This document shows, one piece after another, positions 1,843 through 28,210 of a stretch of 64,000 nt of DNA. The stretch covers positions 186,001 to 250,000 of the forward strand of contig NZ_CP047170.1 of assembly GCF_016806125.1 (NCBI RefSeq), written 5' to 3'. Each line of letters starts with the position of its first letter. Position 1 is the first letter of the stretch. Under the pieces are notes generated by a model, which saw only the letters and a program-made list of their open reading frames with translations, did not search any database and had not been told where the DNA came from. The position numbers and the translations under genes were made by a program. Origin of the DNA: Ponticoccus alexandrii. Lineage in GTDB: Bacteria > Pseudomonadota > Alphaproteobacteria > Rhodobacterales > Rhodobacteraceae.

Positions 1843-2825
1843 TACAGGGCCTCTTCTTGGGCGTCTTGTGTCAGGGGGTACCAGCAGGCGGCCTTACCGT
1901 CCTGCACCTTCGGCGGGGGCGGCTGGCGGCAGAGGTCGGTGGCCCGGGGGCAGCGCGGGTGAAAGGCGCAGCCGTCGGGGACCGCGTCCAGCCGGGGCAT
2001 GGCGCCGGGGATCTGGTGCAGCCGCGCCTTGCCCGCCGAGGCCAGCGGCGTCGAGGCCATGAGCCCGTGGGTATAGGGGTGCTGCGGGCGGGTCAGCACA
2101 TCGCGCACCGGGCCAAGTTCCGCCAGTCGTCCGGCGTACATCACCGCGACGCGGTCGGTGGCCTCTGCGATCACGCCCATGTCGTGGGTGATCAGCATGA
2201 CCGCCGTGCCGCGCTCGCGGCAAAGCCTCTTGAGCAGGGCGATGATCTGCGCCTGAACGCTGACGTCGAGCGCGGTGGTGGGCTCGTCGGCGATGATGAG
2301 GCTCGGCTCGGCACAAAGCGCGAGGGCGATCACCACCCGCTGCCGCATCCCGCCGGAGAACTCGTGCGGGTAGCTGTCCACCCGCTCGGCGGCGCCGGGG
2401 ATGCCGACCTCTTGCAGGGCGGTGACGGCGCGGGCGCGGGCCTCGCGTTCGCCGATCTTCAGGTGGGTCAGCATGGTCTCGACCAGCTGGTCGCCGATCC
2501 GCAACAGCGGGTTCAGCGAGGTCAGCGGGTCCTGAAACACCATGCCGATCTCCTTGCCGCGCAGGCGGCGCATGGCCTCGCCCTTCAGCTGGTCGATGCG
2601 TTGGCCGTTCAGCCAGATCTCTCCGCTGGCGATATGGGCGGGCGGGCTGAGCAGGTCGATGACGGCATTGCCCGCCATCGACTTGCCCGCGCCGCTTTCG
2701 CCCACGACGCCAAGGATCTCGCCGCGCGCGATGTCGTAGCTGACGCCTTCCACCGGGCGCAGGATGCCGTGGCGGGTCGGGATCTCGACGGTGAGGTTGC
2801 GGATCGAAAGGACGGTGTCGGTCAT
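1842..2825 (-). CDS. Oligopeptide/dipeptide ABC transporter ATP-binding protein (DppD/OppD type)
   Basis: First ATPase of the same importer, expected to pair with the DppF-type subunit as a heterodimer on the cytoplasmic face. 327 aa. Walker A GESGAGKS is at residues 42-49, the signature FSGGMRQR follows the Q-loop region, and Walker B is LIIADEPTTALD. The C-terminal oligopeptide-type extension has the cysteine pair GCAFHPRCP. The gene is separated from the upstream permease gene by 202 bases that hold a large inverted repeat, the only sizeable gap among the permease and ATPase genes. This could set a different expression level for the ATPases. Confidence 0.93.
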   Translation of the reverse strand: MTDTVLSIRNLTVEIPTRHGILRPVEGVSYDIARGEILGVVGESGAGKSMAGNAVIDLLSPPAHIASGEIWLNGQRIDQLKGEAMRRLRGKEIGMVFQDPLTSLNPLLRIGDQLVETMLTHLKIGEREARARAVTALQEVGIPGAAERVDSYPHEFSGGMRQRVVIALALCAEPSLIIADEPTTALDVSVQAQIIALLKRLCRERGTAVMLITHDMGVIAEATDRVAVMYAGRLAELGPVRDVLTRPQHPYTHGLMASTPLASAGKARLHQIPGAMPRLDAVPDGCAFHPRCPRATDLCRQPPPPKVQDGKAACWYPLTQDAQEEAL

Positions 2826-2856
2826 GCGGTACCCTCTGTCGACGCTCGCAACGCAA

Positions 2857-2999
2857 GGCGCGCAAGCGCCATGCCCGACCTCGGGAGGGCGGTGATGCCG
2901 GGTGTGTCAGTCGTTCGACAGCCTGACAGATGTGCCGAGCGCGGCAGTTGTGGCTGGATGCCCTCCCGGGGGGGAGGTCGGGCATGGCGCTTGCGCGCC
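2857..2999. repeat. 143-bp palindromic (MITE/REP-like) element between permease and ATPase genes
   Basis: Left arm 2857-2890 and right arm 2960-2999 are reverse complements: 26 bp perfect (starting GGCGCGCAAGCGCCATGCCC), then 8 more bp (GGGAGGGC) after a C-run of 1 in the left arm versus 7 in the right arm. The 69-nt centre holds a smaller palindrome, TGTCAG (2905-2910) with CTGACA (2923-2928). The arms are long enough to form a very stable stem in DNA or mRNA. No coding sense is apparent. It could be a non-autonomous mobile element or an intercistronic RNA hairpin; other genomic copies cannot be checked from this window. Confidence 0.8.
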
Positions 3000-3027
3000 G
3001 GGGGGATCGACGTGATCGGTCTGCTCA

Positions 3028-3993
3028 TCACCGCAGCCTCGGGTTCAGGGCGTCGCGCAGCCAGTCGCCCAGCAGGTTCACCGACAGGGCCAGCGCCAGC
3101 AGCGTGCAGGCCGGGAAGAACAGGATCCACCACTCGCCCGAGAACAGGAACCCCTGCCCGATGCGGATCAGAGTGCCCAGCGAGGGCTGCGTGGGCGGCG
3201 CTCCGACGCCGAGAAACGAAAGCGTCGCCTCGGCGATGATCGCCAGCGCCAGCGAGATGGTCGCGATCACCAGCACCGGCGACAGCACGTTGGGCAGGAT
3301 GTGCCGCAGCATGATCGCCCCCGGCCTGCGCCCGATCAGGCGGGCGGCGGCGACGTATTCCTTGTTCTTCTCGACCAGCGTGGCGCCCCTGACGACGCGG
3401 GCGAATTGCACCCAGTCGCTAAGGCCGATGGCAAGGATCAGCACCCAGATCGCCATCTGGTCGCGGTACTCGACCGGGGTCACGCCCTTGGCCACACCAA
3501 AGATCAGCATCGCCACGAGGATCGAGGGGAAGGTCAGCTGCACATCGGCGATGCGCATGATGATCGTTTCCAGCCAGCCGCCGACATAGCCCGAGATCAG
3601 CCCCAGCGTGATCCCCAGCACCATGGCGAAGGCCACCGCAGAGACCCCCACGAAGAGAGAGATCCGCATCCCGTAGAGGATCGTCGAGAAGACGTCGCGC
3701 CCCTGATCGTCGGTGCCCATCAGAAAGGTGTCGCCGGTAAAGGCGTTGGGCGTCCCCGGCGGCGTGAAGCCGTTCATCAGGTTCAGCGAGGCCGGATCGA
3801 AAGGGTTGCTGGGCGCGATCCACGGCGCCAGCAGCGCCGAAAGCAGCAGCACCAGAACCACCAGCGCCGACACAACCGCCACCGGAGAGCGGCGGAAGCT
3901 GTAGAAGACGTCGCTTTCCAGCGCGAGACGCAGGCGCGATTTGCTGACGGCGACGGGCATGTCGGAGGGCGTGTCCGGGCGGGTGTCGGTCAT
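3028..3993 (-). CDS. Peptide/nickel-type ABC transporter permease (DppC/OppC type)
   Basis: Second transmembrane subunit of the importer, 321 aa, in the inner membrane. A cytoplasmic N-terminus is followed by a first helix (VVSALVVLVLLLSALLAPWI) and a periplasmic segment. The binding-protein-dependent permease core follows, with the EAA-type loop seen as EATLSFLGVGAPPTQPSLG near the C-terminus, where it contacts the ATPases. The start at 3993 lies one base from the stop of the upstream permease gene, so the two are tightly linked. The downstream neighbour is the palindromic element and then the DppD-type ATPase. Confidence 0.92.
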   Translation of the reverse strand: MTDTRPDTPSDMPVAVSKSRLRLALESDVFYSFRRSPVAVVSALVVLVLLLSALLAPWIAPSNPFDPASLNLMNGFTPPGTPNAFTGDTFLMGTDDQGRDVFSTILYGMRISLFVGVSAVAFAMVLGITLGLISGYVGGWLETIIMRIADVQLTFPSILVAMLIFGVAKGVTPVEYRDQMAIWVLILAIGLSDWVQFARVVRGATLVEKNKEYVAAARLIGRRPGAIMLRHILPNVLSPVLVIATISLALAIIAEATLSFLGVGAPPTQPSLGTLIRIGQGFLFSGEWWILFFPACTLLALALSVNLLGDWLRDALNPRLR

Positions 3994-28120: not shown

Positions 28121-28210
28121 GGAGACGTGGCCGAGTGGTCGAAGGCGCTCCCCTGCTAAGGGAGTAGGCCCGGAAGGGTCTCGAGGGTTCGAATCCCTTC
28201 GTCTCCGCCA
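28121..28210 (+). tRNA. tRNA-Ser (anticodon GCT)
   Basis: Complete class II tRNA of 90 bases with encoded CCA. The acceptor stem GGAGACG (28121-28127) pairs with CGTCTCC (28200-28206); discriminator G at 28207 and CCA at 28208-28210. The anticodon stem CTCCC/GGGAG encloses loop CTGCTAA, giving anticodon GCT at 28155-28157. A long variable arm follows, and the T arm has the GGTTCGAATCC motif. A P4-type integrase stub begins 149 bases downstream, so this tRNA gene is the probable attachment site of a lost genomic island. Confidence 0.97.

Follow-up and report, generated by a model that had tools for sequence, protein, structure and literature searches.

The window (the whole stretch of 64,000 nt that was analysed) carries on its minus strand two genes of a peptide ABC transporter operon, one for an OppC/DppC-type permease (3028-3993; PF00528, BPD_transp_1, and PF12911, OppC_N) and, downstream of it, one for an OppD/DppD-type ATPase (1842-2825; PF00005, ABC_tran, and PF08352, oligo_HPY). 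The Pfam domains of both neighbours agree with the initial annotation, in which a large palindrome separated permease from ATPase genes. This palindromic element occupies positions 2855-3001, bounds that were set by comparison with relatives and that fall within 1 nt of the 147-bp core of two copies found in genome G312. In its C-run-first orientation, which is that of the minus strand, it matches at 124 bits the full length (positions 1-148 of 148) of the covariance model R1, built from 30 copies including this one. Comparison of the arms, one of 34 nt without the C-run (2857-2890) and one of 40 nt with it (2960-2999), gave six extra C's in the longer arm as the sole difference between the first and the reverse complement of the second, just as had been described, and the outer 26 bp of the palindrome have no mismatch. 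The small central palindrome reported together with the arms is present in this copy, but it is not a feature of the family, the consensus structure of 30 copies having no central pairs.

The strong hairpin proposed earlier was also recovered, as both strands of the element fold much more stably than 200 dinucleotide shuffles (z of -8.4 for the minus and -7.0 for the plus strand; no shuffle was equally stable). A U-run is absent 3' of the palindrome, which therefore is not an intrinsic terminator. An Rfam scan of the whole window gave a single match, a tRNA at 28121-28207, and none above the gathering score for the element; its best weak match, to the whalefall-1 RNA (RF01762) over the second arm, scored 16.7 bits where the cut-off is 37 (E of 0.064) and was treated as chance.

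The whole element lies inside a small open reading frame of 68 codons plus stop (2822-3028, minus strand) that bridges the two transporter genes: its ATG overlaps the stop codon of the permease (TGATG) and its TGA overlaps the start codon of the ATPase (ATGA). The ATPase gene has a GAGGG of its own 5' of its ATG. This doubly coupled mini-ORF and the role of the C-run as a kept hairpin loop, described below, are two points that the initial annotation did not contain.

Copies of the palindrome in Rhodobacteraceae

BLAST located the element at four places of its own genome (5.09 Mb) and in 24 of 198 genomes of the family, so that it is clearly multi-copy. With E values up to 0.001 accepted and seven candidates scored in each genome, the 30-copy covariance model found matches in 94 of 394 sampled family genomes, sister types counted. 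An order-wide sample of 101 genomes gave 36 with a match, all 36 belonging to the same family, the Rhodobacteraceae. Within the genome collection 23 stretches contain the exact 23-nt arm, 21 of them titled Rhodobacteraceae, Paracoccaceae or genera of roseobacters, and the other two lying on one contig titled Enemella evansiae, a title that looks wrong. Ten weaker loci that were fetched represent sister types with the same plan in other letters. Spread by plasmids was rejected, as only one of 72,556 plasmid records matches the consensus (Salipiger profundus), and so was a phage origin, the consensus having no match in phage records and the exact arm none in viral contigs. The element is one copy of a dispersed, apparently non-autonomous palindromic repeat family, whose core of about 145 nt has a variable centre some 70 nt long. 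The kind, dispersed palindromic repeats, is known and the family appears to be new; a literature search by titles and abstract openings, with subscription papers mostly outside it, returned no description of the repeat or of bridging mini-ORFs around palindromes. Its unusual traits are two hairpins that compete under a three-way constraint, and the residence in doubly coupled mini-ORFs.

Empty sites were found. The element is absent from all 12 orthologous permease/ATPase junctions examined (six plasmid records and six genomes), for which reason a conserved regulatory RNA of peptide operons was rejected; the sequence is not a single-copy one kept in every orthologous operon. At this junction Ruegeria TM1040, Tritonibacter and Pontibrevibacter have the permease and ATPase genes overlapping or almost touching, short gaps are found in G025, G165, G007 and G222, the gap is of 100 nt in Roseobacter ponti and of about 1.1 kb in G346, and two Sulfitobacter plasmids have small ORFs there. 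In G001, a genome of the same genus with flanking genes about 95% identical to those of the window, the place is taken by an unrelated ORF of 169 aa. This ORF overlaps both the upstream stop and the downstream start, with TGATG at both ends. The junction is a hotspot, occupied by unrelated small ORFs in relatives (window 2826-3027; L213:1168-1677, L214, L074, L079). The reverse case was met in a sugar-ABC operon, where G001, G419 and G088 have the element and G000 a Trypco2-like ORF. The latter (L110:4977-5258; PF19631, 25.6 bits with a cut-off of 24.2) stands in the place of the palindrome and begins at the same stop-start overlap.

Two copies located at different loci of G312 (L127 and L130) have in common 147 bp at 96.6% identity, and their same-orientation match stops at the core on both sides. 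To the right of L127 about 15 nt are similar to the left flank of L130 in inverted orientation, and other copies of this genome have 25-40 nt of flank in common; the G312 cores thus sit in mosaic, partly repeated flanks. Near-identical, core-bounded copies at different loci and the empty sites together support dispersal. At a junction that we read from Pfam domains as cysS-cimA, six copies have site and orientation in common, yet a quick tree (support values left aside) does not unite them in a single clade. Plain vertical descent is therefore doubtful there, and repeated insertion or conversion is possible.

The initial annotation had suggested a MITE or REP-type element, and a conventional MITE or REP/BIME moved by an arm-recognising transposase is a possible explanation of these data, if not the one that we favour. 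The family is dispersed, with empty sites and core-bounded copies; like a MITE, the element is small and multi-copy, with terminal inverted repeats and no transposase of its own, and like REPs and BIMEs its copies are dispersed, extragenic palindromes near gene ends. However, RAYT (PF01797) was detected in one of 14 carrier genomes and not in the other 13, the same search being positive in five of 14 named control genomes, and by eye no target duplication was seen in the flanks examined. The partner arm was readable in 22 of the 23 stretches with the exact arm (L062 is cut at its edge), and there the arms enclose nothing but the small element; the family is not known to have a parent element. 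For these reasons (RAYT, target duplications and parent) 'REP' or 'MITE' denotes here a likeness and not membership, and the earlier interpretation as a whole is partly supported. By reading, the window arms and the consensus also lack the GTAG or CGTC tag by which REPs are classed (PMC3733652). According to the same source, CGTC REPs seem to have no dedicated transposase and predominate in Alphaproteobacteria, and the carriers of the element, 13 of 14 with no RAYT detected, resemble them in this respect. Unlike REPs, the element has the untagged core with a variable centre described above, and CGTC ends are found only on inserts nested in three copies. MITEs and the enterobacterial RU/ERIC repeats are small and non-autonomous, with inverted ends, and can form or extend reading frames (PMC2759123, whose main text has neither 'operon' nor 'translational coupling'). 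The element is likewise a small, apparently non-autonomous repeat with inverted ends that can form or extend reading frames, but unlike them it has no recognised parent transposon or target duplication.

Competing hairpins and three-way covariation

On the C-run-first strand three segments can be distinguished, A (ATGCCCGACCTC) and B (GGGAGGGCAT), which make up the 40-nt arm, and C (GCCCTCCCGAGGTCGGGCAT), which is the 34-nt arm. A and B can pair either with each other, in a local hairpin that has a loop of four bases and a CGAC bulge, or with C in the long hairpin. In the window the local hairpin spans 2958-2985 on the minus strand, with ATGCC, the CGAC bulge and CTCCC on one side, GGGAGGGCAT on the other and the loop at 2968-2971 within the C-run. 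Both structures were evaluated in an alignment (A5) of 68 of the 74 copies, the six copies with inserts being left out. The local hairpin has 96.6% of its cells paired and 47 two-sided changes (8.9 in shuffles), these changes being confined to two of its ten pairs, and the long hairpin has 91.2% of cells paired and 121 two-sided changes (26.8 in shuffles). The local loop is of 4 nt in 61 of the 68 copies, which indicates that the C-run that breaks the palindrome is, as judged from the alignment, the kept loop of a competing local hairpin.

In 60 of the 68 copies, and in seven different states, the dinucleotide at alignment positions 17-18 is complementary to 43-44 as well as to 130-131; in the window these covarying positions are 2984-2985 on the minus strand with partners at 2958-2959 and 2871-2872. 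The three sites account for the six strongest APC-corrected mutual-information pairs of the alignment. The covariation gives a clear example of a single base pair that serves two rival partners. A strand with two states or three copies of one recognition word could explain the constraint, and the data fit either; it might derive from recognition, by a mobilising or binding protein, either of the folded strand or of the word present three times.

Template switching that copies one arm onto the other could also produce the covariation, as a mutational by-product with no selection. Quasipalindrome correction is a known mutational process, but it should also erase the asymmetry of the C-run, whose four-nucleotide loop is kept in the copies counted above, and the mismatch between alignment columns 41 and 135, a pair that is non-standard in 26 of the 68 copies, so that we consider this origin doubtful.

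In the six copies with inserts, further hairpins are found by reading at the loop or at the bulge, and three of them begin with CGTC and end with GACG or GATG. These three, nested in the apical loop (L112:2841-3032, L115:3019-3211 and L154:3022-3213), resemble dimers of CGTC REPs.

Position of the copies and bridging mini-ORFs

Genes were called with our own codon-likelihood caller rather than taken from public annotation, and with overlaps below 25 nt not counted none of the 74 copies overlaps a called gene (0/74 by at least 25 nt); two copies overlap one by 6 and 18 nt. There were 56 copies between co-directional genes (27 sense and 29 antisense), 14 between convergent and 3 between divergent ones, and one undetermined, whereas the control gaps of at least 30 nt at the same loci were 123 co-directional, 31 convergent and 43 divergent. 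Divergent gaps are thus avoided (3/73 copies vs 43/197 control gaps, P = 2e-4; this and the following P values assume independent copies and gaps, which is not wholly true). The median distance of the copies is 32 nt from the upstream stop and 61 nt to the next start. BPD_transp_1 was matched by 12 of 53 upstream and 6 of 54 downstream proteins, and ABC_tran by 4 of 53 and 6 of 54 (small proteins, 3/56 and 2/56, had been dropped beforehand). These are plain counts of neighbours, from which no enrichment in ABC operons is claimed.

The palindrome might act in cis as an RNA hairpin that stabilises or attenuates the transcript between the two genes and is under selection for a certain permease:ATPase ratio, as REP hairpins within operons are. 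The very stable fold on both strands, the location near the 3' ends of genes and the covariation in favour of alternative hairpins would suit such a role. However, the orientation of the copies is balanced, and the C-run-first strand has no preference for G-U (39 G.T vs 63 A.C cells in the long hairpin), both observations being evidence against a strand-specific RNA switch. With the element also missing from the 12 orthologous junctions and with no U-run for termination, we find this explanation quite unlikely.

A copy was considered coupled when a small ORF around it starts between -8 and +6 nt from the end of the upstream stop and ends between -3 and +20 nt from the next start. Such bridging ORFs contain 26 of the 56 co-directional copies (27 by a slightly different test); with orthologues merged, the count is 18 of 45 loci. 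Exact overlap with the upstream stop and with the downstream start, as in the window copy, was found in 20 of 56 copies vs 4 of 65 control gaps. The difference is marked in gaps up to 300 nt, of which 23 of 32 with the element were bridged vs 4 of 48 controls (P = 4e-9), while above 300 nt the figures were 4 of 24 and 2 of 17. Correspondingly, 29 of the 56 copies are not doubly coupled (30 by the other test), including 20 of the 24 in the longer gaps, and the five co-directional copies among the ten sister-type loci are not doubly coupled. The right frame was found in 23 of 31 cases vs one third expected (P = 4e-6). Shuffling the dinucleotides of the element in place left on average 13.2 of 31 coupled, because frames tend to stay open in GC-rich DNA and are set here by the flanks; removing one or two bases left 1 and 3 of 31.

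In a 400-kb sample of the element's own genome, 11 of 96 gaps were coupled, including real small genes (one of them presumably yacG), and a strong palindrome was present in one of the 96 gaps, itself coupled, too few for a general rule. The six coupled control gaps (four short and two long) contain, by reading, other palindromes in five cases and a Trypco2-like gene in the sixth. Those with unrelated palindromes include L141:1750-2115, L141:4160-4550, L146:1105-1280 and L153:4150-4300. Of four copies found later, L243 is doubly coupled, L239 is coupled at the start with the next long ORF beginning 17 nt past its end, L241 is coupled at the start and then continues in frame into the downstream gene, and L242 is coupled at neither end. 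In the case of L241 (G443) the open frame passes through the element into a membrane-protein gene, a possible N-terminal fusion. At two empty cysS-cimA junctions (L189 and L204, by reading) the genes overlap directly, in the same way as ORF and upstream stop overlap where the element is present.

Translational coupling requires genes that overlap or nearly touch, and it is therefore puzzling how operons survive the insertion of a stable palindrome. Reinitiation is almost lost when about 20 nt separate the genes (PMC10666635), so that an untranslated insert of 145 nt should uncouple them. The reading that we prefer, to which we give a probability of roughly 60%, is that of a REP/MITE-like dispersed palindrome that operons would tolerate wherever translational coupling is kept up by a bridging mini-ORF. 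From the sequence we infer that the mini-ORF is translated; it could carry ribosomes across an insertion that otherwise interrupts translation of the operon, and through it the termination-reinitiation coupling of the downstream gene, and its protection from Rho, would survive, with a peptide that need have no function of its own. Against bridging, the ATPase gene, with its GAGGG, could initiate alone. A family bridged by ORFs from end to end would give a direct and testable answer to how operons survive palindromes, and bridging could account for one class of the short 'hypothetical' ORFs that lie between the genes of operons.

A bolder proposal, which we hold to be unlikely, would make of the element a coupling module that is both mobile and translated: ribosomes would reinitiate into the mini-ORF at the upstream stop, melt one of the two mutually exclusive hairpins and reinitiate at the downstream start, each insertion setting a new ratio of upstream to downstream protein with the operon unbroken. 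More widely, unrelated palindromic repeats in these bacteria would then persist in operons only as bridging mini-ORFs.

It is very improbable that the mini-ORF is a genuine gene for a small protein, with the palindrome as its coding sequence and comparable to the Rickettsia palindromic elements (RPEs), since in spite of the start and stop overlaps of many copies and of recurrent arm-derived peptides such as ALPGGRSGMAHARR, the first arm is read in all three frames and in both orientations with no conserved peptide, three orthologous pairs of mini-ORFs have no excess of third-position differences (4/8/4, 14/14/11 and 3/1/1 at codon positions 1/2/3), and the three mini-ORFs scanned had no Pfam or NCBIfam match (E of 0.01 for that of the window, which was among them). 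RPEs are, like the element, palindromic repeats of about 150 bp located within reading frames in an alphaproteobacterial lineage; the peptide that they encode is conserved, and many of them are in-frame insertions within host genes (PMC10969869). Unlike them, the element occupies a mini-ORF of its own between the genes of an operon, in any frame (0, 1 or 2), and no copy lies within a called gene, L241 alone running in frame into the next one.

Some shorter palindromes were also observed. At the cysS-cimA junction of other genera they are found upstream of cimA (L187, L193, L195, L196, L197, L201, L203, L206 and L207), several with a similar CGACC plan, and one at L139:300-470 is likewise coupled at both ends. 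The element's own genome (L219-L238) has several short palindromes centred on TTCGAA in intergenic gaps.
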